From Butyrivibrio proteoclasticus B316 (GTDB taxonomy: Bacteria > Bacillota > Clostridia > Lachnospirales > Lachnospiraceae), in assembly GCF_000145035.1 (NCBI RefSeq), contig NC_014387.1, positions 938,276 to 1,002,275 of the forward strand: 64,000 nt of DNA, given 5' to 3'. Both the position numbers and the translations under genes were made by a program. How positions within the stretch are numbered: the stretch's first letter is position 1; each line of letters opens with the position of its first letter. A model generated the notes under the pieces. The model did not search any database and had not been told where the DNA came from. It saw only the letters and a list, made by a program, of their open reading frames with translations. Shown here one piece after another: positions 40,546-53,085 of this stretch.

Positions 40546-42261
40546 ATGGCGGACGCTGCTAAGAAAAAGGATTCCTTTAGCCTTGGAGAATTCAGGAAAC
40601 TATCAGTATCTGATAAGTTTAAAAAAGTATTTGGCAATCTGAGAACGAATCTTATTGCTATTTTCGCCGTAATCATTCTGATTGATGTTGTAGCTCTTTT
40701 CAATCTGCATAATATCTATGCGGTGTATTATGAGCAGAACACTGATCAGGGTGAGATCAGGATCACCATTCAGGCCCTTGCCAAATATTATCTGTGGGCG
40801 CTTTCTGCGCAGGATGAAGAGGATAGAAATGAACAGTTTGCAGGGGTTGATGAGAAGATCCAGGAATTAAATGATGGTCTCACAACACTCAGCAGAGTTT
40901 ACAAGGGTGACCTTTCGACGGCCTATCAGCATGTCAAAGATATAGATACCGCCGATGATAAGCTTAGAGAAATGTTTCAATCCGGAGCCGGTTCTGCCGA
41001 AATCTATGAATACTACGTTGGCACTATCAACGAAGCTATTAAAGTAGTTGTTAAAGACTTTAAGGAGATTGGAATATCAGCCAAGGCTCAGGCTCAGTCG
41101 GCGTATGTTCTTGCACTTGTATCAGTTCTTGTGATGACAGCGATTTCTCTTATCGTTCTTATTTACGCTATCCTTTATATGAACAAGGCCAAGAAGGCCC
41201 TGACAAACAGTATCCTTGGACCGATTGAAGCAATATCAGCAGCTGCCGATGATATGGCAAAGGGTAAACTTGAAGTCAAGGTACATACTGAATCTGAGGA
41301 TGAACTTGGCAAGCTCGCAGATGATATTACTTATTCCACAGATGTAATTGAGGATGTGGTAAAAGATATTATTGAGACCTTAAAGCGTATGTCCGGCGGA
41401 GATTTCACTACCGGAAGCAGAAATGAAAAGATATATATCGGAGATTACGGTGCTATCAGGGATGCATTTAAAGATATCTCAGGAAATCTCAGCAGCACTC
41501 TTTTGGAAGTCAGAAATTCTTCACAGCAGGTTTCTCAAGGGGCTATGAATATGTCACAGGGAGCAACTGATCTGGCTGAAGGTTCTACCGATCAGGCTGC
41601 CGCAGTTGAGGAGCTTACGGCATCTGTCAACTCAGTTACAGAACAGACAAGACAGCTTGCAGATGTGGCTGAAAAGAGTAAGGCTATGGCCACAGAAGTT
41701 AGAGAAAACGCTGAGACCAGCGCAAGAAAGATGCATCTTGTTACTGATGCTATGACAAGGATCACAGAAGCTTCTGCAGAGATTGAGCAGGTTACAAACT
41801 CAATCGAAGCTATTGCCAAGCAGACTTCCCTTCTTGCACTTAATGCTTCTATTGAGGCAGCAAGAGCAGGCGAGACAGGTAAAGGATTTGCGGTTGTTGC
41901 TGATCAGATTGGTAAGCTTGCAGATCAGAGTAGTGAAGCTGCCAAGAATACACATCAGCTCATTGCAGATACAATGGATGAGATCAATAATGGTAACTCT
42001 GTAGTTGCAGAGACCACTGAGGCTCTTGATGCTATGCAGCACAGCGTTGAGGAAATCACAGACATGATCATCCAGACAGGAGATCTTGCAGAAGAGCAGG
42101 CTCAGAGCATGGACGAGATTGATAAGGGTATTGAGATGATCTCCAATGTTGTACAGAGCAATTCTGCTACAGCTGAGCAGTCAAGCGCTGTATCTCAGGA
42201 GCTTTCCGAGCAGTCAGAGTCGCTTAACAGCCTCATCGGACAGTTTACGATAAGTGAATGA
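40546..42261 (+). CDS. Methyl-accepting chemotaxis protein
   Basis: A 571-aa chemoreceptor that signals to CheA/CheW. One N-terminal membrane helix (LIAIFAVIILIDVVALF), a helical four-helix-bundle-like sensor domain of about 130 residues, a second helix (LALVSVLVMTAISLIVLIYA), HAMP (IEAISAAADDMAKGKLEVKV) and a long signalling coiled coil with the hairpin tip QTSLLALNASIEAARAGETG. AAGGAGG lies seven bases before the ATG. The ligand is unknown. A strong terminator follows, so it is not cotranscribed with the phosphatase gene downstream. Confidence 0.95.
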   Translation: MADAAKKKDSFSLGEFRKLSVSDKFKKVFGNLRTNLIAIFAVIILIDVVALFNLHNIYAVYYEQNTDQGEIRITIQALAKYYLWALSAQDEEDRNEQFAGVDEKIQELNDGLTTLSRVYKGDLSTAYQHVKDIDTADDKLREMFQSGAGSAEIYEYYVGTINEAIKVVVKDFKEIGISAKAQAQSAYVLALVSVLVMTAISLIVLIYAILYMNKAKKALTNSILGPIEAISAAADDMAKGKLEVKVHTESEDELGKLADDITYSTDVIEDVVKDIIETLKRMSGGDFTTGSRNEKIYIGDYGAIRDAFKDISGNLSSTLLEVRNSSQQVSQGAMNMSQGATDLAEGSTDQAAAVEELTASVNSVTEQTRQLADVAEKSKAMATEVRENAETSARKMHLVTDAMTRITEASAEIEQVTNSIEAIAKQTSLLALNASIEAARAGETGKGFAVVADQIGKLADQSSEAAKNTHQLIADTMDEINNGNSVVAETTEALDAMQHSVEEITDMIIQTGDLAEEQAQSMDEIDKGIEMISNVVQSNSATAEQSSAVSQELSEQSESLNSLIGQFTISE

Positions 42262-42412: not shown

Positions 42413-44524
42413 ATGAAGAAAAAAATCATGAAGATCATGCTGGTCATATCTTCAATTCTTTTGATACTATTTGGATTCTTTACCGTGCAGATGATGACTA
42501 ATGTCAGGGATATCACACTACGAAATTCCGAGAAGACCGGAAAACAGGTGGAAGAGTACTCTGACAAGGCTATGCGCGATCAGATTACGGGACGTCTTAG
42601 TGCAACAGCGCTAGGATGTGCCTATATTCTAAATGAAATGTTCAGCGATTTCGCCGGATCAGTGGCTCTGAATGCAGAAGCTGCAACCGATATCTACACA
42701 AATCCCGAAAAATATGGAAATGCAAGGGTCACAAGACCTGAGAAGTTTGAAATTGGACAGATGAAAGCCCAGTTCGTCTATGCGGAAGGTGTAAATCCCA
42801 ATGACGTGGATATTAGAAAAGAACTGGCTATGATCGGAAATCTTCAGGGAAATCTTACTGCCATGTATGGTCAGTACAATCAGCTGGGGGCTTCTTATAT
42901 TGGCACTGAAACCGGAATATTGCTCCTGGCAGGCCCTGTACTCCAGGAAAGATGGGACAGCAATGGCAATTATGTTCATCTGGACCCAAGACAGCGCCCC
43001 TGGTACCGCAAGGCCAGAATGACCCAGAAGGTAAGCTTTACAGATATTCAGAATGACTATGACACAGGCAGACAGGCCATAATGTGCGGAGCTCCGATTT
43101 ATAAAGGGAAAACCTTTGTAGGAGTTGCCGGGGCAGGACTATACCTTGAAGGCATTGAGAAAATGATGATGAATGCAAGAATAGGTGATGAAGGTGATTC
43201 CTGCATTATCAACGGCAAGGGAAAAGTTATCTTTTCCTCTAGAAAAGAAGGACAATTAGAGCCGCAGTCACTTCTTATAGAGGATAAGGATAAAGATGTA
43301 GCTTCTTTTGCAGCCAAGGCAGCCAGCGGAGAGAGCGGACTGGAACTTTTGGATATCGATGGAGTTACCTGTTATCTTGCTTATTCTCCGGTAGAAATTG
43401 TTGGATGGTCACTTGTATCAATAATTCCAGAAAAGACAGTGCTTGCACCCAATGAAAACCTGATGACTTCGATCAGAGACAGTCAGGATGAAGAACATAC
43501 AGCGATACTCAGCATTATCAGGACAGCTCTTTTTAACATGCTGACACTTATAGTAGCAATGGGAATCATTACTGTCATCTTGTCCAGCTTTCTGAGTGAG
43601 CGTTTTGTAAGACCGATAACGCTTCTTACTAGCAAGGTCCATGACCTTGAAGGAGATCAGCTGGATTTTGAGTGGAATGAGGATACAGGCGATGAAGTTC
43701 AGGAGCTTGCTACGACTTTCAAGCAGATGACTGACAGAATGAAGACCTATATTGACGACATTCAGAAGGCTACTGCTGAAAAAGAGAGGATCGGAGTTGA
43801 GCTGGGACTTGCAACCCGTATTCAGGCGAGTATGCTGCCTCACGAGTTTCCGCCTTTCCCTGACAGAAAAGAGTTCGATATTTATGCACTGATGGATCCT
43901 GCCAAGGAGGTCGGTGGTGACTTCTATGATTTCTTCCTGATAGATGATGACCACTTGGGGCTTGTTATGGCAGATGTATCAGGTAAAGGTATTCCGGCAG
44001 CTCTTTTCATGATGATCTCCAAGGTTATTCTGCAGAGCTGTGCGATGCTGGGAACATCAGCTGCTGAGACGCTCAATAAGACTAATGATGCGCTTTCTTC
44101 CAGTAATCAGACTGAAATGTTCGTAACTGTCTGGTTTGGAATTCTGGAGATTTCAACGGGCAATCTTAGCTGTGCCAACGCAGGACATGAGTACCCTGCT
44201 ATAAAAAGAGCTGACGGCTGTTTTGAAATTTATAAGGACAAGCACGGCTTTGTAATAGGCGGAATGGATGGAGTCAAGTACAAAGAATACAACATCAAAC
44301 TTGAGCATGGAGATAAGATCTTCTTATATACTGATGGCGTGCCGGAGGCAACTAACAGCGAAGTTAAGATGTTTGGCACAGAGCGCATGCTACAGGCACT
44401 TAATAAGGATGCGTCTGCAGGACCTGAAAAACTGCTTCAGAATGTTAAGGATGCAGTTGCAGACTTTGTAGGCGACGCGGAGCAGTTTGATGACATGACA
44501 ATGCTGTGCTTTGAATATAAATAA
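42413..44524 (+). CDS. Cache-HAMP-PP2C (SpoIIE/RsbU-type) phosphatase
   Basis: A 703-aa transmembrane serine/threonine phosphatase. An N-terminal helix (IMLVISSILLILFGFFTVQM) and a second one (LFNMLTLIVAMGIITVILSS) bracket a Cache-like extracellular sensor (RPWYRKARMTQKVSFTDI, GWSLVSIIPEKT). HAMP follows, then a PP2C domain of the RsbU kind: ATRIQASMLPHEFPPFP, AKEVGGDFYDFF and MADVSGKGIPAALFM, with metal-binding Asp residues in place. RsbU-type phosphatases dephosphorylate STAS-domain antagonists. The STAS protein at 46800 is the likely substrate. AGGGG ten bases before the ATG at 42413 sets the start; the GTG at 42395 lies in the ribosome-binding site itself. Confidence 0.92.
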   Translation: MKKKIMKIMLVISSILLILFGFFTVQMMTNVRDITLRNSEKTGKQVEEYSDKAMRDQITGRLSATALGCAYILNEMFSDFAGSVALNAEAATDIYTNPEKYGNARVTRPEKFEIGQMKAQFVYAEGVNPNDVDIRKELAMIGNLQGNLTAMYGQYNQLGASYIGTETGILLLAGPVLQERWDSNGNYVHLDPRQRPWYRKARMTQKVSFTDIQNDYDTGRQAIMCGAPIYKGKTFVGVAGAGLYLEGIEKMMMNARIGDEGDSCIINGKGKVIFSSRKEGQLEPQSLLIEDKDKDVASFAAKAASGESGLELLDIDGVTCYLAYSPVEIVGWSLVSIIPEKTVLAPNENLMTSIRDSQDEEHTAILSIIRTALFNMLTLIVAMGIITVILSSFLSERFVRPITLLTSKVHDLEGDQLDFEWNEDTGDEVQELATTFKQMTDRMKTYIDDIQKATAEKERIGVELGLATRIQASMLPHEFPPFPDRKEFDIYALMDPAKEVGGDFYDFFLIDDDHLGLVMADVSGKGIPAALFMMISKVILQSCAMLGTSAAETLNKTNDALSSSNQTEMFVTVWFGILEISTGNLSCANAGHEYPAIKRADGCFEIYKDKHGFVIGGMDGVKYKEYNIKLEHGDKIFLYTDGVPEATNSEVKMFGTERMLQALNKDASAGPEKLLQNVKDAVADFVGDAEQFDDMTMLCFEYK

Positions 44525-44650
44525 TGTAATTCTTAGAGAATTATGTCTGTGAGTAATTGGAATATCTTTTCCATTCTGATATAGGTGTATAAAAAATTAT
44601 AATAATTTAAGAAATTGACTGACAAATATACATTATAATGATAAGGAAGC

Positions 44651-44709
44651 CAATAGTCATAAATGCGCATTTTGCTTGCATACTTATCATGGAGCAATTC
44701 GTATATCAT
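44651..44709. repeat. Dispersed repeat, copy 2
   Basis: Contains the same 21 bases (44689-44709) found at 24143-24163, preceded by caatagtcataaatgcg, which resembles a module that follows the shared segment at the first locus. It lies in the 276-base gap between the phosphatase and the first double-glycine peptide gene. A TATAAT at 44634-44639 nearby is a possible -10 box for the peptide gene. Confidence 0.6.
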
Positions 44710-44800
44710 TATGATAATTGTGGATAGATAAATTTCTTTTGCCACAAACTTAAGATCTTCGTATAAAAAGATATCCAGGGAATACAGGAGGACAAAAGAC

Positions 44801-45031
44801 ATGAGCATTTTAAACGATAATGATCTTGAGAAGGTGGTTGGCGGAACTATAGCACATGCCGGTGAAAAGGCTGTGTTTGCTACCAAAAAGGAAGAATTCG
44901 AGGCTGCATGGGATGCTCTTAAGATGGAGAAAAAGGGCTATACCGGCAACATGAGAGCAGAGCTCTATGATGATTGGGAGAGTACGGATTATTCCACATC
45001 AGCAATCAGCTTCCTTGCTAAGATCAAATAA
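44801..45031 (+). CDS. Double-glycine-leader peptide 1
   Basis: A 76-aa precursor with a 15-residue leader MSILNDNDLEKVVGG, the classical pattern cut after Gly-Gly by C39 peptidase exporters. The 61-residue core (TIAHAGEKAVFATKKEEFEA onwards) has no cysteine, is charged and probably helical in its first half, and ends ISFLAKIK. It is not typical of class II bacteriocins and carries no obvious residues for lanthionine formation beyond a few Ser/Thr. AGGAGG lies nine bases before the ATG, the strongest such site in the cluster. The exporter with a matching peptidase lies 3.2 kb downstream. Signal, toxin or matrix roles are open. Confidence 0.8.
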   Translation: MSILNDNDLEKVVGGTIAHAGEKAVFATKKEEFEAAWDALKMEKKGYTGNMRAELYDDWESTDYSTSAISFLAKIK

Positions 45032-45058
45032 AGTTTTTGGGTAAGCGAGGTGATGCCA

Positions 45059-45256
45059 ATGGATGAGAGGGCTATGGCTATGAATGATAATGAACTTGAA
45101 AACATAACCGGTGGCGGCAAAGGCAAAAGTGATCAGACAACGGGAGAGAGGACAACAGAAGCATATTGTCCGATTTGCAAAAAGACAACAACATTTATAG
45201 TTTACTCCGGTTCGAGAGGTAAGTGTAAGAAATGCGGCGAAATGTCGCAGATATGA
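45059..45256 (+). CDS. Double-glycine-leader peptide 2 with zinc-ribbon-like core
   Basis: A 65-aa precursor whose leader ends MNDNELENITGG, closely matching that of peptide 1. The core after Gly-Gly has two CxxC pairs (CPIC and CKKC, 17 residues apart), as in a small zinc ribbon; the same cysteines could instead form disulfides once outside. Two ATGs are plausible: 45059 (GAGG eight bases upstream) and 45080, giving MNDNELEN directly. The gene starts 28 bases after peptide 1 and is followed by a hairpin, so both peptides may be made in excess over the genes behind. An exported zinc-ribbon peptide is unusual. Confidence 0.75.
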   Translation: MDERAMAMNDNELENITGGGKGKSDQTTGERTTEAYCPICKKTTTFIVYSGSRGKCKKCGEMSQI

Positions 45257-45266
45257 TGAGTTTATC

Positions 45267-45298
45267 GACACTTGCAGCAAAGGGCTGCAAGTGTCTTT
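45267..45298 (+). terminator. Intercistronic hairpin after the peptide genes
   Basis: The perfect 11-bp stem gacacttgcag/ctgcaagtgtc with a caaaggg loop is followed by only three T. It probably allows partial read-through or stabilises the peptide mRNA. Confidence 0.75.
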
Positions 45299-45332
45299 AC
45301 GCGTTTTCATGCGTCACAAATCAGGGAGCATT

Positions 45333-45737
45333 ATGGAAAAACTTACTGTTGAAGCAACTAAAGAAAATCTGATCGCGGTCAACGAATTTGTGGAGACTAA
45401 TCTTGAGAAAATAGATTGTCCCATGAAGGCTATGATGCAGATAAATGTTGCTGTAGAAGAAATCTATATTAACATTGCAAGTTATGCCTATGGTGATGCG
45501 TCAGGTCAGGCAGAGATACTTCTTGATACTGATACACCTGGCCAGGTTTCCATAGTTTTTATGGACAGCGGAACACCTTATGATCCACTCGCCAAGGAAG
45601 ATCCGGATATTACACTTTCCGCTGAGGAAAGAGGAATAGGCGGTCTTGGAATCTTTATGGTCAAGAAGAGTATGGATGATGTTAAGTACAGATACGAGGA
45701 CGGTAAGAACATTCTGACTCTGATCAAGAAAATCTAA
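45333..45737 (+). CDS. RsbW/SpoIIAB-like anti-sigma-type ATPase kinase
   Basis: A 134-aa GHKL-fold protein of the RsbW type. Visible boxes are the N-box INVAVEEIYINIASYAY, the G1 box MDSGTPYDPL and the G2 box RGIGGLGIFMVKK. Such proteins bind a partner (often a sigma factor) and phosphorylate a STAS antagonist, being countered by a PP2C phosphatase. All three parts exist in this cluster (phosphatase 42413, STAS 46800), but no sigma factor is nearby. AGGGAG four bases before the ATG at 45333 sets the start; the frame extends to 45291 through the hairpin, which I reject. Confidence 0.88.
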   Translation: MEKLTVEATKENLIAVNEFVETNLEKIDCPMKAMMQINVAVEEIYINIASYAYGDASGQAEILLDTDTPGQVSIVFMDSGTPYDPLAKEDPDITLSAEERGIGGLGIFMVKKSMDDVKYRYEDGKNILTLIKKI

Positions 45738-45759
45738 GTGATTGATTTGAGGTGTAGCC

Positions 45760-46236
45760 ATGAAGATCTCTTTTGATCTGGACGAGGTTCTGTTTGTCAG
45801 CCCTGACTATATGGAAACAGAGCCTGAACTGAGATTTCCCTTGAACAGGATGTTTCCGGAAAGGCTCAGGAAAGGAACAGTATATCTGATAAATGAGCTT
45901 CAAAAGAGAGGCTTTGAAGTGTGGGTTTATACATCCTCTTTTCGCACAGATGTGTACATCAGATCACTTTTCAGAAGATACGGAATTCATTTTGATGACA
46001 TTGTAAACGGCTACAGACATAAGGCGGAAGTTCAGGGAAACAGAGCAGATATGCTTCCACAGAAGATGCCGACATTCTACCGCATATCCCTTCACATTGA
46101 TGATGAGGATGCGATCATAGAAAACGGTAAAAGATATGGTTTCAGGGTGCTCAGGATATGCGAACCCGATGAACACTGGACTGACAAGGTATTGGAGGAA
46201 GCAGAGCGCATCAGAAAGATTGAAGAGGGAAACTAG
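45760..46236 (+). CDS. HAD-like hydrolase
   Basis: A 158-aa small HAD-superfamily-like protein beginning MKISFDLDEVLFVSP, which matches motif I (DxD). YTSSFR fits motif II, and HIDDEDAIIENGKRYGF fits the acidic motif IV. No real cap domain is present. The substrate is unknown. GAGGTG lies five bases before the ATG, and the gene follows the RsbW-like gene by 22 bases, so it belongs to the same transcript. Its role in peptide export or partner switching is unclear. Confidence 0.7.
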   Translation: MKISFDLDEVLFVSPDYMETEPELRFPLNRMFPERLRKGTVYLINELQKRGFEVWVYTSSFRTDVYIRSLFRRYGIHFDDIVNGYRHKAEVQGNRADMLPQKMPTFYRISLHIDDEDAIIENGKRYGFRVLRICEPDEHWTDKVLEEAERIRKIEEGN

Positions 46237-46293
46237 ATACCAGAGGGCAGAAAATATAAGGTAGAAGATATAGGATTACAGAGGAAAACCGAT

Positions 46294-46641
46294 ATGGAGG
46301 ATAATAAAAGTATTGAGAAGAGGCTTGATTACGTCGAATCCATTTTTGAAAAATACGGAGCAAAGGCCCTTGATATAAATGAAAAAAATCGCGACAAGTT
46401 TGGCGATAGAAGAGCTTTTTTATATGATGGGAATTACTACAGAACAGGAACGATGGAGTTTGAAGATCAGGACGAACCTTATATAGTTATCAGCTGCATC
46501 GATAATGAGAAGTTTGCAAACGTTGGAGTTATGGAAGATATTGATGCTTTTTCCTCTAAACTCAGCGATGAAGATATAGAAAAACAGGTCAGATATGCCT
46601 TTGGGATAGAACCTTATCCTGAGGAATATGGAGCAGAATAA
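46294..46641 (+). CDS. Hypothetical 115-aa protein in the partner-switching cluster
   Basis: An acidic 115-aa protein that I do not recognise. It starts MEDNKSIEKRLDYVESIFEK with a helical segment, has an aromatic middle (RAFLYDGNYYRTGTMEFEDQ) and ends with an amphipathic helix (DEDIEKQVRYAFGIEPYPEE). No signal peptide or membrane helix. GAGG lies nine bases before the ATG. A 158-base gap with a weak hairpin (about 46717-46752) separates it from the STAS gene, which may have its own promoter. Confidence 0.65.
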   Translation: MEDNKSIEKRLDYVESIFEKYGAKALDINEKNRDKFGDRRAFLYDGNYYRTGTMEFEDQDEPYIVISCIDNEKFANVGVMEDIDAFSSKLSDEDIEKQVRYAFGIEPYPEEYGAE

Positions 46642-46799
46642 ATACTATTAGTACGGAATAATAGGAAATACTGCAGGAATTCGATGAAAACTTGATGATA
46701 AGTCTGGTTGTGATGGTATTAATCCCAAGAAGAATCATCTTGGCGGGAATAATATATATTTTTTAACAGCATAAATTGTGTAACAGGAGGGTAAAACAC

Positions 46800-47099
46800 A
46801 TGTTGAACATTAACAAAACTTTAGCAGAAAAGGATCTTAACATCAGTCTTGAGGGAAGACTTGATACTATGACAGCGCCTGATCTTGAGGCACAGCTTTC
46901 AGCAAGCCTTGGCGGCGTTGAAAATCTTGTTTTTGATCTTGCTAAGCTTGAGTACATCTCATCTGCAGGTCTTCGTGTTCTTTTGTCAGCTCAGAAGACT
47001 ATGAACAAGCAGGGCTCAATGGTTGTCAGAAACGCAACAGAAGAAGTTAAGGAAATCTTTGAGGTTACAGGCTTCTCAGATATTCTGACCATCGAATAA
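46800..47099 (+). CDS. STAS-domain anti-anti-sigma-type antagonist
   Basis: A 99-aa SpoIIAA/RsbV-like protein. Its STAS fold is read from SLEGRLDTMTAPDLEAQL, then LVFDLAKLEYISSAGLRVLL, where the second Ser before Ala-Gly is the usual phosphorylation site. When dephosphorylated by a PP2C enzyme it would bind and sequester an RsbW-type kinase. AGGAGGG eight bases before the ATG at 46800 sets the start. It is 39 bases before the degenerate RsbW-like gene. Confidence 0.92.
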   Translation: MLNINKTLAEKDLNISLEGRLDTMTAPDLEAQLSASLGGVENLVFDLAKLEYISSAGLRVLLSAQKTMNKQGSMVVRNATEEVKEIFEVTGFSDILTIE

Positions 47100-47138
47100 A
47101 CAGTTCTTATGAGAAAATGATGCGGGGAGATGATAGAA

Positions 47139-47762
47139 ATGGAATCTGAGAAAATACTGATCACTAACAAGAATTTCAAGCTCTATGATGCACTTGGAAA
47201 GATTGATAACTATCTGGAAGATTTCGAACTTGGCAGGAAGGATACACTTCACATGAGACTTATCATGGAGGAGACGCTTGGAATGCTGGGAGCAATGACA
47301 GGTGAGTACCATGCTCTTTTATGGATGGAGAAAAAGCCTGACGCCTGCGAGATCAAGCTTGTAGCCAAGACTGATATGGATGTGGATAAGAAAAAAGAGC
47401 TTCTGTCAGTTTCCAAGACCGGCGAAAATGCGCTTGCCAAGGGCTTTATGGGTAAGATTGGTGAGATCATTGAAAACGGAATCCTCAATTACGAGAATAT
47501 CATGAAGCTGCAGCAGGTTTATGGCGGCGGATATGTTGATTACGCTGCACTTGGCGGAAATCCTTCAGATTCAATGTTTGTATGGAGTCTTGACCAGTAC
47601 AGGGATGCTCTTGATGAAGCAAGAGTAGATGATGATGCGGCAGGACACGCCTGGGATGAGCTTGAGAAGTCTATTGTTGCAAGTGTTGCCAAGGACGTTG
47701 TAGTCGGAGTCAAGATGGATCAGGTAGAGCTTACTATTACTGCGGCTTTGACCGGTGAATGA
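47139..47762 (+). CDS. Degenerate RsbW/GHKL-like protein
   Basis: A 207-aa protein. Residues about 20-60 (LGRKDTLHMRLIMEETLGML) resemble the helix that carries the N-box of anti-sigma ATPases, but the Asn is replaced, and no G1 or G2 glycine box is seen afterwards. ATP binding is therefore doubtful. The end (KMDQVELTITAAL) resembles the last strand of GHKL folds. It may be a non-catalytic binding partner of the STAS protein, or its fold may differ entirely. GGGGAG precedes the ATG at 47139. The HlyD-like gene follows after ten bases. Confidence 0.55.
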   Translation: MESEKILITNKNFKLYDALGKIDNYLEDFELGRKDTLHMRLIMEETLGMLGAMTGEYHALLWMEKKPDACEIKLVAKTDMDVDKKKELLSVSKTGENALAKGFMGKIGEIIENGILNYENIMKLQQVYGGGYVDYAALGGNPSDSMFVWSLDQYRDALDEARVDDDAAGHAWDELEKSIVASVAKDVVVGVKMDQVELTITAALTGE

Positions 47763-47772
47763 TTAAAAATTT

Positions 47773-48189
47773 ATGGATAATAATCTTTTTAGAGAAAAGA
47801 GCGTCAAAAAGTTGTCCTCACCTGAGAATCTGAGTGAGTACCTTCGGGTTACAACACCTGCCATGTGGGTGATCCTGATAGGGATAATGGTAGGAGTGAT
47901 CGGACTCTATATCTGGAGCTATTTCATGACCATTAATAGCTATGCCTATGGCGATGGCGTGGTCAGAAACGGCATTTTGACAGTTACCTACGAAGAGAAC
48001 AGTACAGCTCAGTATGTCAAAGATGATATGGATGTTATCATTGGCGGAGTGCGCATGCCGATAGATTCTATAGGAAAAGATGATAACGGCAAGATCATAT
48101 CTGTTTCCAAAACTGATTTTCCTGATGGAGACTACGCTGCCAAAGCCAGTTATAAACAGACCAGGATGATAAGTATGCTCTTTAACTAA
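47773..48189 (+). CDS. Short HlyD-like (NHLM-type) secretion protein
   Basis: A 138-aa protein with the N-terminal pattern LSSPENLSEYLRVTTPAMW, which recalls the start of NHLM-system membrane fusion proteins. One membrane helix (VILIGIMVGVIGLYIWSYFM) and a ~75-residue external beta-rich part follow. Full HlyD-type adaptors of these systems are several hundred residues long with coiled coil and lipoyl domains, which are missing here. A Gram-positive cell may need only this anchor. It starts ten bases after the previous gene and ends just before the C39 exporter gene, so it is probably part of the export complex. Confidence 0.72.
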   Translation: MDNNLFREKSVKKLSSPENLSEYLRVTTPAMWVILIGIMVGVIGLYIWSYFMTINSYAYGDGVVRNGILTVTYEENSTAQYVKDDMDVIIGGVRMPIDSIGKDDNGKIISVSKTDFPDGDYAAKASYKQTRMISMLFN

Positions 48190-48208
48190 GGAAACTGAGG
48201 TGGCGTTT

Positions 48209-50386
48209 ATGGGCGCCAATAGAACTGTAAAGAAGCCTTCTGTTGGTAAAAGAGTTCATGTCCCTATTGTAATGCAGATGGAAGCTCTGGAATGCGGAGC
48301 AGCCTGCCTTGACATGATACTTGCTTACTACGGAAAGTGGATACCCCTTGAAAAGGTCAGATACGACTGCGGGGTATCCAGAGACGGCTCTAATGCCAAA
48401 AATATATTATGTGCCGCAAGAAACTATGGCCTTGAGGCAAGTGGGTACCGCTTTGAACCTGAGACACTGGTTAAAAGTGGCTCTTTTCCATGCATAATTC
48501 ACTGGGAATTCAACCATTTCGTTGTTTTATGCGGATTTCAGGGTGGTTATGCCTATATAAATGACCCCGGAAGGGGAATTCTTAAAATGCCCATGAGCGA
48601 GTTTGACGAAGGCTTTACAGGAATAGTCCTGTGCTTTGAGCCCGGTGATAATTTCGTTCAGAGCGGCAAAAAAATGCGCACCATAGACTACGTTAATATC
48701 AGGTTAAAGGGTGCGTCTAAAGCAGTTATCTTTGTCCTTTTTTCCACTTTTGTTGCATATCTTTTTAATACGCTAAATCCGGCATTTAGCAGGTTCTTTA
48801 TGGACAGACTCCTGTCCGGAGAAAATAAGGAACTACTTATGCCGTTTATTGTGCTGTTCTCGGCTGTTGCTTTTTTTAACATTGTGAGCAGCGCAGTATC
48901 TGATATATATTCTCTCAGGATCGATGGTAAGCTGTCAGTTCTTTCTAACAGCAACTATGTCTGGAAGGTACTGCATCTTCCTATGAATTTCTTTAGCCAG
49001 AGATTATCCGGAGACATATTGCAGAGAAAGGGCTCACAGATATCCAAGATACTTGTAGATACTGTGGCTCCCCTCCTTCTGAATTTTGTCATGATGATCT
49101 TCTATTTGGTGTTCATGCTAAGGTACAGCCCCTTATTATCACTCATAGGTATTGCCTCGATTGTTCTGAACAGCTTTGTCGGAAGGCTTATTTCCAGAAA
49201 AAGAGTCAACATTACCCGCTGCAGTCTCAGAGATTCAGCCAAACTCGAATCTACAACTCTTTCGGGAGTAATGATGATAGAGACAATTAAGAGCTCCGGT
49301 GCGGAAGCCGGCTTTTTCAAGAAGTGGGCGGGCTATCAGGCAGCAGTTAATAAAGAAAAGATTGAATACGGGCATATCAATATATGGCTTGGAAGTATTC
49401 CGGCACTTATAAATTCCCTCGCCGGCTACATGGTGCTTATACTTGGTGTTGCCCTTGTAATGAGGGATCAGTTCACACTTGGTATGGTTTTGAGTTTCCA
49501 GATGTATCTGAGCTATTTTACCGCGCCGGCCATGGGTATCATAGGAGCGGGGCAGTCTATAGAAGAGATGCGCTCCATGATGGAGAGATACGAAGATGTA
49601 ATGCAGTATCCGGATGATGAACTTTTCGATGCAGAGAGCATTTCGGATGACCAGGAGTATCAGAAGCTTAAAGGGGATATCCACCTAAGAAACGTTACAT
49701 TTGGATATAGCAGGCTTGCCAATCCGGTAATCAAAGACTTTAGTCTCGATATTGCAGAGGGCAGTAAAGTAGCCATAATCGGGGCTTCGGGCTGCGGAAA
49801 GAGCACTCTTTCCAAACTCATATCAGGCTTATATAAGCCATGGAGCGGAGAAATAACCTTTAGTGATAAGACTATCGAGCAGATAGACAGAAATGTTTTT
49901 ACCGGCTCCGTAGCTGTAGTTGATCAGGATATAACTCTTTTCCAGGATACTATAGATCAGAATATCAAGCTGTGGGATAACAGCATCGAGGATTTTGAAG
50001 TTATACTTGCGGCCAGAGATGCGGGCATTCACGATGAAATCATGGAAAGAGATGCAGGCTACAAGGGAGCTGTTGCAGAAAACGGAAATAATTTCTCCGG
50101 CGGACAAAAGCAGCGCCTTGAGATAGCAAGAGTCCTTGCTCAGGATCCTTCCATAATTATTCTGGATGAAGCAACAAGCGCATTGGATGCGGTGACAGAA
50201 ATGAAAGTCATCGAAGCTATCAAAAAGCGCGGAATTACCTGCGTTGTAATCGCCCACAGACTCTCGACTATCAGAGACTGCGACAATATCGTAGTGCTCA
50301 GAGACGGAGAAATTGCTGAGCAGGGAACACATGAGGAGCTTCTGGAGAAGGGCACGTACTATAAAGAACTGGTAACTAACGAATAA
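48209..50386 (+). CDS. C39-peptidase ABC exporter (PCAT, NHLM-type)
   Basis: A 725-aa bifunctional exporter that cuts double-glycine leaders and pumps out the core peptide. The C39 domain (about 15-145) has Gln23 and the catalytic Cys29 in QMEALECGAAC, His in FNHFVVLCGF (about 105) and Asp in INDPGRG (about 121). Six membrane helices follow (about 165-460), then the ATPase with Walker A GASGCGKST, signature FSGGQKQRLEIARV, Walker B IIILDEATSALD and H-loop VIAHRLS. GAGGTG six bases before the ATG at 48209 sets the start. The two GG-leader peptides upstream are its likely substrates. Confidence 0.93.
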   Translation: MGANRTVKKPSVGKRVHVPIVMQMEALECGAACLDMILAYYGKWIPLEKVRYDCGVSRDGSNAKNILCAARNYGLEASGYRFEPETLVKSGSFPCIIHWEFNHFVVLCGFQGGYAYINDPGRGILKMPMSEFDEGFTGIVLCFEPGDNFVQSGKKMRTIDYVNIRLKGASKAVIFVLFSTFVAYLFNTLNPAFSRFFMDRLLSGENKELLMPFIVLFSAVAFFNIVSSAVSDIYSLRIDGKLSVLSNSNYVWKVLHLPMNFFSQRLSGDILQRKGSQISKILVDTVAPLLLNFVMMIFYLVFMLRYSPLLSLIGIASIVLNSFVGRLISRKRVNITRCSLRDSAKLESTTLSGVMMIETIKSSGAEAGFFKKWAGYQAAVNKEKIEYGHINIWLGSIPALINSLAGYMVLILGVALVMRDQFTLGMVLSFQMYLSYFTAPAMGIIGAGQSIEEMRSMMERYEDVMQYPDDELFDAESISDDQEYQKLKGDIHLRNVTFGYSRLANPVIKDFSLDIAEGSKVAIIGASGCGKSTLSKLISGLYKPWSGEITFSDKTIEQIDRNVFTGSVAVVDQDITLFQDTIDQNIKLWDNSIEDFEVILAARDAGIHDEIMERDAGYKGAVAENGNNFSGGQKQRLEIARVLAQDPSIIILDEATSALDAVTEMKVIEAIKKRGITCVVIAHRLSTIRDCDNIVVLRDGEIAEQGTHEELLEKGTYYKELVTNE

Positions 50387-50466
50387 ATTATTGAGAATCT
50401 GAAATGTGATCATTGATACAAGTGAGTGTTGCGCAACAGTAATATATTAATAGAGGAAACAGAGTA

Positions 50467-52644
50467 GTGGGTTGGTTTGACGAGCAGATAAGGCAGAGAA
50501 CAAAGAGCGATCAGGAAGTATTTGAGGATTCCATATTTAATATGGCTTCCTCTGTTATTGGTGTCAAAGCCGTCAAGGACATTACTGATAGCCGCGTTGT
50601 GACCAAGGCTGCCATCGAAGAGATAATTAAATACTTTGGATATAAGCCGGAAACTGACTCCTTTAATCAGCTTGGAGAAGATATAGATCTGGCAAATATT
50701 CTGCGCCCATTTGGAATAATGTTCAGAGAAGTCACTCTGGATGAGGAGTGGACTAAGGAAGCTTATGGTCCAATGATCGGCAAGCTCAGATCCGACGGCA
50801 CTGTCATAGCTCTTTTACCTGGGAAATCTAAGGGCTACTATTATCAGGATTATAAGCTTGGCAAAAGAGTCAATGTGAGCAGAAAGGTGCTGGAGGATAT
50901 TGATCCACAGGCTATATGCTTTTATAAGCCTCTCCCGACCAAGAAGCTTGGAATACGCGACCTTATTATTTATATGAAGAACTGTCTGGATATTCCGGAT
51001 TTCATCGGCTATGTAATCCTGATGTCAATTGTTACTATTATAGGAATTATGGCGACTTCTCTTGTAGAAATCGTGTCCGGATATGTGGTTTCCATGCACA
51101 GCTATCCTATGCTGTTTGGAACGGCTATTTTCCTCTTTTCACTGGGAATTTCGGAGTTTATGATCGAAGCCAGCGCTGAACTTATTATGGAGAGGATTGA
51201 ACTCAAGACAGGAATAAATGTAGAAGCAGCGGTGATGAACAGGGTTTTAAATCTCCCTGCCGGGTTCTTTAGAAAGTATACCTCGGGAGAACTTGCGGCA
51301 AGGATCAATTCAGTCAAGGAGCTGTGCGAACTTATAATAGGAAACGCTGTAACAATGCCACTTGTCCTGGTGCTGTCCCTTGCGTATCTGTTTGAGATCA
51401 GGTCTTTTGCCCCTGCATTGGTTTTACCGGCGCTTGCGATAAATGTGATCTCTCTTATTTTTTCTTTGATCACAATATTTATACAGACCGGAATTACCCA
51501 GAAGGTTATGCAGTATGATGCGGAAGAAGACGGTATAACCTATGCTTTTATCAATGGTATCCAGAAAATCAAGCTTGCCGGAGCAGAGAAAAGAGCTTTT
51601 GCGAAATGGGCAAACTCTTTTAACGAAAGCGCAAACCTTCTCTATAGCCCGCCTACAGTTATCAAACTAAATAAGACTATCAATATGGCAATTGGCCTTG
51701 TCGGAACCCTGATAATCTATGCGATAGCTGTTAAAACAAATGTCAATGAGTCTGAGTACATGGCCTTTAATACAGCCTACGGCCTTTTGGGAGGCGCCTT
51801 TGCTTCTATATCATCGGTTGCGCTTCAGACTGCCAACATCAGACCAATCCTCAAACTGGCAGAGCCAATCCTTACTGAAATTCCGGAATCCAGCGAGGGG
51901 AAAGCTGTAATAAACAGAGTTAACGGTAATATTGAGCTGTCTAACGTCAGGTTCAAATATGATGAAAACGGCCCGGAGATTCTAAGAGGAGTATCGACCA
52001 GGATCAAAGCTGGGGAATATGTGGCAATTGTCGGTAAAACGGGATGCGGTAAGAGTACGCTCCTAAGACTCCTTCTGGGGTTCGAAGTGCCGACAAAGGG
52101 CGCTATTTACTATGATGGCAGGGATATCACCAAGATAGATATGACCAGCCTTCGCAGGAAAATAGGAACTGTCACCCAGAACGGATCTCTTTTTCAGGGA
52201 GATATTTATTCTAATATAGTAATAACTAATCCGCTCCTGACAGTGGATGATGCCTGGGAAGCCGCTGAGATTGCGGGAATTGCCGATGACATTCGCCAGA
52301 TGCCTATGGGAATGAATACCTTTGTGTCAGAAGGACAGGGCGGAATCTCTGGCGGACAGAAGCAGAGAATCATGATCGCGAGAGCTGTCGCTCCAAAGCC
52401 TAAGATCCTGATGCTGGATGAAGCCACAAGTGCACTTGATAATATCACGCAAAAGAAGGTTTCAGAGTCACTGGATAAACTTAAGTGCACCAGGATAGTT
52501 ATTGCGCACAGACTTTCTACTATTAAGAACTGCGACAGGATTCTTGTAATTGATGATGGTAAGATTGTGGAAGAGGGTAGGTACGAGGAACTTATGGAAA
52601 AAGAGGGGTACTTTGCCGAGCTTGTTAAGAGGCAGCAACTGTAG
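50467..52644 (+). CDS. Second NHLM-type ABC exporter without peptidase domain
   Basis: A 725-aa ABC half-transporter partner. Its N-terminal ~165 residues are not a C39 domain and lack its catalytic residues, but they resemble the extended cytoplasmic region of the ATP-binding protein that pairs with the peptidase exporter in NHLM systems. Six helices follow (from FIGYVILMSIVTIIGIMATS), then the ATPase with GKTGCGKST, ISGGQKQRIMIARA and ILMLDEATSALD. It begins with GTG at 50467, ten bases after GAGG. The two transporters probably form a heterodimer. Confidence 0.9.
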   Translation: MGWFDEQIRQRTKSDQEVFEDSIFNMASSVIGVKAVKDITDSRVVTKAAIEEIIKYFGYKPETDSFNQLGEDIDLANILRPFGIMFREVTLDEEWTKEAYGPMIGKLRSDGTVIALLPGKSKGYYYQDYKLGKRVNVSRKVLEDIDPQAICFYKPLPTKKLGIRDLIIYMKNCLDIPDFIGYVILMSIVTIIGIMATSLVEIVSGYVVSMHSYPMLFGTAIFLFSLGISEFMIEASAELIMERIELKTGINVEAAVMNRVLNLPAGFFRKYTSGELAARINSVKELCELIIGNAVTMPLVLVLSLAYLFEIRSFAPALVLPALAINVISLIFSLITIFIQTGITQKVMQYDAEEDGITYAFINGIQKIKLAGAEKRAFAKWANSFNESANLLYSPPTVIKLNKTINMAIGLVGTLIIYAIAVKTNVNESEYMAFNTAYGLLGGAFASISSVALQTANIRPILKLAEPILTEIPESSEGKAVINRVNGNIELSNVRFKYDENGPEILRGVSTRIKAGEYVAIVGKTGCGKSTLLRLLLGFEVPTKGAIYYDGRDITKIDMTSLRRKIGTVTQNGSLFQGDIYSNIVITNPLLTVDDAWEAAEIAGIADDIRQMPMGMNTFVSEGQGGISGGQKQRIMIARAVAPKPKILMLDEATSALDNITQKKVSESLDKLKCTRIVIAHRLSTIKNCDRILVIDDGKIVEEGRYEELMEKEGYFAELVKRQQL

Positions 52645-53085
52645 GTATAAGAATGCAGACAATAGATTGCACACAATTTAAATGTTGATCAGTATGTGAT
52701 AAGCAATCTAAAGTGTCGAATTTTTTATCAATTTGTCGGAAATTTTTGAATAAAATATGTGAAAGAGCTGTTTGTTAGTCAATTGAAATTAATATACAGC
52801 TCTTTTTTTGCGCATAAAATGAAAGAATGCGATAAATATGCGTGGTTTAACGATTGCATTAATTGAAATTGTGTTAAATGAATATTTATAAATGGATAAA
52901 AAGACGGCAAGACGGCAAAATAAGTGCGTTAACACGGATATATTAATAATGGAACGTTAATAATAATACGGCAAAAAGAAAATAACTATAAAAAATAAAT
53001 AAAAATTCTATAAATAAATACTTGTTTAATAGATAATTTCATATTATCATATCTCTGATGAAATTTTGTATTGGAGAGTTTTTTT
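52645..53085 (+). promoter_or_regulatory. 441-base gap between the exporter cluster and the polysaccharide operon
   Basis: The first half holds a terminator (52762-52809). The second half is very AT-rich with short repeats (agacggca twice near 52903-52918, then tacggcaaaaag) and presumably carries the promoter of the long surface-polysaccharide operon. I see no clear box pair. GGAGAG precedes the Wzz-like start at 53086. Confidence 0.5.
52762..52809 (+). terminator. Terminator of the exporter cluster
   Basis: The perfect 10-bp stem aaagagctgt/acagctcttt with a 24-base loop is followed by a run of seven T. Confidence 0.88.

Follow-up and report, generated by a model that had tools for sequence, protein, structure and literature searches.

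We analysed a stretch of 64,000 nucleotides from Butyrivibrio proteoclasticus B316 (NC_014387.1, positions 938,276 to 1,002,275; hereafter the window), in which a gene cluster at window positions 42413 to 52644 joins a double-glycine (GG) peptide exporter to the genes of a partner-switching regulator. The regulator probably forms a circuit that controls a distant extracytoplasmic function (ECF) sigma factor, here named SIG, which in turn would run a peptide-secretion regulon. The cluster encodes a Cache-HAMP-PP2C phosphatase, the leader peptides GG1 and GG2, an RsbW-like kinase, a HAD-like protein, a 115-aa protein, a STAS antagonist, an RsbW-fold protein (DegW), a short HlyD-like protein and the exporters ABC1 and ABC2. 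According to a sequence-only reading of the window, an external signal would switch the synthesis or the export of peptides. This is supported here, as the presence of SIG tracks a promoter-like motif in front of GG1 and of GG-leader genes scattered over the genome. The same reading saw no sigma factor gene in the cluster and listed three possible targets of the kinase, namely the exporter, the degenerate partner and a sigma factor encoded elsewhere; the remote SIG together with DegW is now favoured, and the exporter is left unsupported.

The sigma factor SIG and its promoter motif

The gene for SIG lies on the opposite strand, 26.6 kb beyond the cluster (G000:C1:1017504-1017983, G000 being B316 in the comparisons). 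SIG was recognised as an ECF factor by its match to TIGR02937 (108.5, over the cut-off of 42.9) and by matches to Sigma70 r2 and r4. The B316 genome (4,404,886 bases, main contig 3,554,804) contains a single ortholog, 74% identical to the protein at locus L076, and the next matches reach at most 32% identity. SIG was called at E<1e-70, first in 61 genomes of the genus and then in 18 more (79 in total). Eighteen of the 61 carry it, B316 included, and the number of carriers rose to 23 with the added genomes; the 43 SIG-negative genomes include G008 with a divergent SIG (7.3e-40), and three same-score copies in G103 are perhaps an assembly artefact.

Three associations of SIG hold, namely with the exporter, with DegW and with GG1. 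An exporter over the cut-off was found in 18 of 18 SIG genomes against 19 of 43 others (p=2e-5), a close DegW (E<1e-40) in 22 of 23 against 25 of 56 (p=1.1e-5), and a GG1 homolog in 19 of 23 against 5 of 56 (p=3e-10). SIG lies within about 5 kb of DegW and on the same strand in nine of the 23 SIG genomes. Four relatives share the order HlyD-ABC1-ABC2-SIG-DegW-STAS, with the HAD-like and 115-aa genes inserted before SIG in three. SIG, DegW and STAS are consecutive at L073, L074, L076 and L077, loci within which no RsbW gene was found. Two further relatives display SIG-ABC1-ABC2-DegW-STAS-RsbW (read in G058 over two loci, L065 and L057), and at L060 the gene order of the window is followed directly by SIG.

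Small open reading frames (ORFs) beside SIG in six relatives' loci and GG1 of the window share the sequence TTGCC-N14/15-TTCGTAT, which the aligned sites extend to TTGCCA-N13/14-TTCGTATAAATAA. In the window the motif was found once, as TTGCC-N14-TTCGTATA at 44739..44765 on the + strand, compared with a mean of 0.07 in shuffles. The ATG of GG1, a 76-aa GG-leader peptide (44801..45031, +), follows 36 nt after it. With a position weight matrix this site scores 33.7, and no other site in the window is above 9. The A, A and A after TTCGTAT lie outside the search pattern and are kept in 98, 88 and 96% of the 48 sites with a start codon behind. The SIG-containing unit is itself preceded by the motif at L073, L074, L076 and L077, an arrangement that ECF autoregulation would predict.

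Comparison of genomes ties the motif to SIG. The B316 genome has 19 matches to a looser form of the motif against 2 for the reversed pattern, and 17 of them have a spacing of 14-15. The mean number of sites per genome is 9.67 (5-17) in the 18 SIG-positive and 1.49 (0-8) in the 43 SIG-negative genomes (p=6e-10), with the reversed control at 0.83 and 1.05, respectively; these motif and gene counts ignore genome kinship. The contrast persists against the 19 SIG-negative genomes that have the exporter (p=2.7e-7). The highest SIG-negative counts belong to G051 (8), G009 (5) and G047 (4). When GG1 homologs were sought by protein search, they were found in 24 of the 79 genomes, 20 of them with the motif upstream at scores of 17.9 to 35.6 and with CGTAT kept; one other site scores 10.7 and three homologs (G038, G114, G008) have no motif. 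Some GG1 sites trained the matrix that scored them, so the prediction of SIG in five new genomes is the cleaner test: all five genomes with the motif before GG1 carry SIG (E 2.4e-75 or better), and all five also carry DegW.

A divergent SIG (49 and 51% identical) lies about 0.5 kb from the GG1 homolog in G008 and G114. The gene between the two in G008 encodes a GG2-like core on another leader (L155), which puts this kind of peptide pair next to a sigma gene, and the motif has no match in G008. Near NHLM exporters or DegW/STAS genes at L040, L100, L104, L108, L110, L120, L096, L306 and L330 lie other ECF-like sigma genes, less closely related to SIG, which suggests parallel versions with other promoters.

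Behind the 17 sites of B316 we found six GG/AAG-leader peptides, five lipoprotein-like ORFs and two other ORFs; four sites have no convincing ORF. GG/AAG leaders stand behind 37 of 90 sites read in SIG-positive genomes, which are those in fetched loci, some chosen for nearness to DegW, SIG or exporter, against none of 24 in SIG-negative genomes, one per genome and 12 from outside the genus (p=3.5e-5). The count of 37 comes from a regular expression, minus the false case L214 and plus L152 added by eye. Every site was read only in G000, G019 and G039, where leaders follow 13 of 40 sites against the same 0 of 24 (p=0.001), with 6 of 17 in B316, 5 of 11 in G039 and 2 of 12 in G019. Ten lipoproteins were counted behind the sites read, leaving out L174 and L218, which are membrane proteins. 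The motif also serves to locate small leader peptides anywhere in a genome, at a distance from any exporter.

A second precursor family, M..KL.RLFDYQK...LSDDEL...NAAG or VAAAG, occurs beside SIG in many genomes (L146-L154, L073, L074, L077), often with the motif just before it. At L065:10808, L072:8271, L070 and L081, close to tandem DegW genes, the motif also stands before the gene of a secreted-looking protein of about 920 aa. At L172, L178, L183, L225, L226, L227, L196 and L210 the same motif is followed by a structured RNA that contains repeated hairpins together with a terminal element, the first three loci being the B316 copies (G000:C1:2366095, G000:C1:3242006 and G000:C4:155540); L196 and L210 belong to SIG-negative genomes, and L210 has no terminal element. 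With the eight copies aligned and the fold of one taken as the structure, both sides vary in 5 of 15 pairs and covariation scores 0.250, compared with 0.111 in shuffles, but further pair types are no more numerous than in shuffled alignments. Rfam at gathering scores gave no match in six loci with the motif-linked RNA.

DegW and the other parts of the cluster

DegW (47130..47762, +; second ATG at 47139) is likely the anti-sigma factor of SIG, judging from gene order, co-occurrence and its modelled structure. Tests on its sequence were fruitless: Pfam gave no match at E<=1, a sequence search of the PDB none at E<=10, and hhalign a probability of 15.7% over 60 columns. The fold was revealed by the structure model alone: the predicted structure has the GHKL fold of RsbW and SpoIIAB, and its nine best structural matches are anti-sigma factor entries. 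The N-box Asn and the G1 and G2 boxes are absent, so DegW lacks the marks of an active kinase. Across 54 sequences, position 50 is M (47) or L (7) and not the N-box Asn, a G2-like motif is found in none and a G1-like motif in one. The predicted structure also matches the SiaB fold, and no search for SiaC or SiaD was made. The cluster differs from the Pseudomonas SiaA-SiaB-SiaC system in that DegW has no ATP motifs and the STAS protein is of RsbV type, and no diguanylate cyclase was recognised in the cluster.

The cluster was confirmed at the coordinates given by the sequence-only reading, with all parts on the + strand and a strong intrinsic terminator (52761..52806) at the end. The partner-switching set is complete. 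The Cache-HAMP-PP2C sensor phosphatase (SpoIIE-type; 42413..44524) has 6k4e as its best solved match, with the GGDFY, SGKG, TDG and DD stretches aligned; a motif scan of the window found no SIG motif upstream of it. The serine kinase (45333..45737, ORF open from 45291) keeps the N, G1 and G2 boxes for ATP binding and resembles RsbW and SpoIIAB. The STAS antagonist (46800..47099), of RsbV/SpoIIAA type, keeps the acceptor Ser, that of ISSAG aligning with the Ser of RsbV MDSTG. GG2 (45059..45256, ORF open from 45050) is a GG-leader peptide with a CxxC...CxxC zinc-ribbon-like core. The HAD-like protein (45760..46236, a sub-threshold match) and the 115-aa protein (46294..46641, function unassigned) recur in related clusters.

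We propose that PP2C activity is set by an external ligand sensed by the Cache domain, as the domain content suggests. STAS would be dephosphorylated by the phosphatase and phosphorylated by the RsbW-like kinase, consistent with the intact motifs of these proteins. Gene order, co-occurrence and fold point to unphosphorylated STAS binding DegW, a putative catalytically dead anti-sigma factor, and thereby releasing SIG. SIG would then start transcription before GG1 and at up to 16 further B316 sites, as the cross-genome correlation suggests, its candidate targets beyond GG1 being five more GG/AAG-leader peptides, lipoproteins and the structured RNA. The C39 exporter of the cluster, from what is known of its family, would cleave the leaders and export the peptides, presumably including the scattered ones. 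From the GG1 promoter, expression of the kinase, STAS, DegW and exporter genes would probably rise as well, possibly in one transcript, to give a feedback loop.

By its profile match, the exporter is of NHLM type. ABC1 (48200..50386) passes TIGR03796 with 863.7 bits against a cut-off of 853.3 and is the sole match over the cut-off in the B316 genome; the other 83 matches begin at model position 134 or later, past the peptidase. Its best solved match is the PCAT-type bacteriocin transporter 4ry2; the alignment runs through the C39 domain and retains the stretches with Cys, His and Asp, which are the catalytic residues. ABC2 (50467..52644), an exporter without peptidase, is clearly related to TIGR03797 at 681 bits, under the cut-off of 709.4. 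The HlyD-like membrane protein (47773..48189, 138 aa) matches TIGR03794 over 54 of 421 positions, at the N-terminal end, with 32.9 bits under a cut-off of 156.2. Neither GG1 nor GG2 matches an NHLP or Nif11-type leader model of NCBIfam at E<=1.

The sequence-only reading had named, as one refuting result, regulators and exporters that never adjoin in relatives; this refutation fails, for they were found adjacent in several gene orders, though not everywhere. Among 37 exporter loci picked by the exporter alone, several of which end at contig ends, 16 have a PP2C-profile, STAS, RsbW or ECF gene within 7 kb; the PP2C label stems from a profile of the whole window phosphatase, which also catches other HAMP or Cache proteins at low scores. 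Of 79 named loci, some of them short, only 15 have an over-threshold ABC1 no further than 8 kb from DegW. At L286, HlyD-ABC1-ABC2 is followed by STAS-DegW-RsbW-PP2C. The exporter ATPases were considered as the target of the kinase and found unsupported, and the module occurs without an exporter (L061).

The region directly upstream of the phosphatase (40546-42261) reads by eye as a methyl-accepting chemotaxis protein, and a gene with the same weak profile match recurs upstream at L263-L265, L267 and L268.

Points against the circuit and alternative explanations

A number of observations weigh against the proposed circuit. SIG is not near DegW in 14 of the 23 SIG genomes, B316 among them, four SIG genomes have no GG1 homolog, and G029 has SIG with only a distant DegW (1.3e-27). 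DegW is common in SIG-negative genomes (the 25 of 56 above) and must therefore serve other partners too. The motif stands before a GG1 homolog in G051 and G009, which have no SIG ortholog, and 25 of the 90 sites have no ORF behind them. The contrast in leader peptides weakens when set against the 12 SIG-negative sites from the genus alone, to 37 of 90 against 0 of 12 (p=0.0036) and, for the genomes with all sites read, to 13 of 40 against 0 of 12 (p=0.024). Related genomes are not independent, and neither are the counts. Across the 61 genomes, ABC1 and DegW display no association (p=0.29). No exporter follows the G040 module (L061), and neither SIG nor an over-threshold exporter was found in this genome, which is 87% complete. 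A gap of 158 nt precedes the STAS gene, and this gap together with the phosphatase having no motif of its own makes a single transcript uncertain.

It is unlikely, though it survives best among the alternatives, that the RsbW-like kinase is the anti-sigma factor of SIG, as in SigB/SigF systems, with DegW as an extra adaptor or as a binder of, for example, the exporter. Its intact ATP boxes and its kinship to RsbW and SpoIIAB, which hold sigma factors, would suit this role, and a DegW so common without SIG fits as well. However, the SIG-DegW-STAS strings at L073, L074, L076 and L077 have no kinase gene in the locus, DegW has the predicted anti-sigma fold, and nearly every SIG genome (22 of 23) has a close DegW.

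We consider it quite improbable that the switch acts on the exporter post-translationally, with STAS or a kinase-like protein touching the ATPases and SIG controlled separately. The adjacency of regulator and exporter genes, which are probably co-transcribed, agrees with this explanation, and the available text of a report on Bordetella BtrU/V/W acting on type III secretion (PMC7498569) provides a precedent; the module occurs without an exporter at L061, however, and ABC1 is near DegW in only 15 of 79 loci.

Still less probable is that the motif is an ordinary housekeeping promoter and SIG merely marks a lineage rich in GG peptides. The sequence TTGCCA-N17-TATAAA is near the sigma-A consensus, which the spacing and hexamers of the motif fit loosely, and the kinship of the SIG genomes and the SIG-less sites of G051 and G009 would be accounted for. 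Against this, SIG-negative genomes of the same genus are near the level of the reversed control, also among the 19 with the exporter, CGTAT is kept before GG1 homologs found by protein, and SIG was confirmed in all five genomes predicted to carry it. A chance joining of DegW module and NHLM exporter in one lineage, as might be read from the missing exporter-DegW association and from most DegW loci having no exporter, deserves very little credence given at least four gene orders that unite the two (the window type, two SIG-containing orders and L286).

Relation to known systems and significance

The favoured circuit, in which DegW holds SIG, resembles RsbU-RsbV-RsbW and SpoIIAA-SpoIIAB in its PP2C, STAS and motif-bearing kinase and in the anti-sigma fold. 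It differs in that the target appears to be an ECF factor and not of SigB/SigF type, and in having another RsbW-fold protein, one that lacks kinase motifs. Bordetella BtrS/BtrA with BtrU/V/W likewise links a secretion system to an ECF factor and a partner switch; according to the available text (PMC7498569), this sigma factor also governs an effector gene 2.5 Mbp away, the mechanism by which the switch proteins control secretion is unknown, and BtrA, the anti-sigma factor, is itself secreted. The B316 system differs from it in the leader peptides and the C39 exporter. With NHLM/NHLP export (TIGR03794, TIGR03796, TIGR03797), as far as the available text of PMC2887384 describes it, the cluster shares a C39 exporter over the curated cut-off, a paired ABC exporter, an HlyD-like gene and several leader peptides per genome. 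It departs from that system in the HlyD-like protein of only 138 aa, ABC2 under the cut-off, short GG/AAG leaders outside the NHase- and Nif11-leader models, and regulators within the cluster.

A review of ECF factors (PMC8103513) lists, in its available text, membrane-anchored and soluble anti-sigma factors, Ser/Thr kinases, extensions and transcription as modes of control; PP2C/STAS/RsbW-type control is not among these five mechanisms, and its main text contains 'RsbW' and 'STAS' 0 times. In Rhodobacter, attempts to find the cognate sigma factor of a partner switch, with ECF factors among the candidates, were unsuccessful according to the available text of PMC3999984. The main text of a 2026 bacteriocin survey of the Hungate1000 rumen collection (PMC13289728), in its available form, contains 'NHLP', 'sigma factor' and 'double glycine' 0 times. 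A search of open-licence PMC literature, mostly titles and the starts of abstracts, found no description of such a system.

The chances seem even that these genes represent a separate class of ECF control, in which separate genes have come to encode the kinase that charges STAS and the holder of the sigma factor, a dead kinase that often occurs in tandem. SIG would there command a genome-wide secretome of leader-peptide mini-proteins, several of them zinc-ribbon-like, with lipoproteins and the structured RNA, and the exporter would sit in the regulator's own operon. For an orphan peptide exporter of the rumen, in a polysaccharide-degrading host bacterium, the analysis provides a candidate regulator together with a promoter sequence and a list of substrates, all directly testable. 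If the circuit is as proposed, one outside signal would activate peptide genes at dispersed genomic sites and, with them, an exporter for these peptides.

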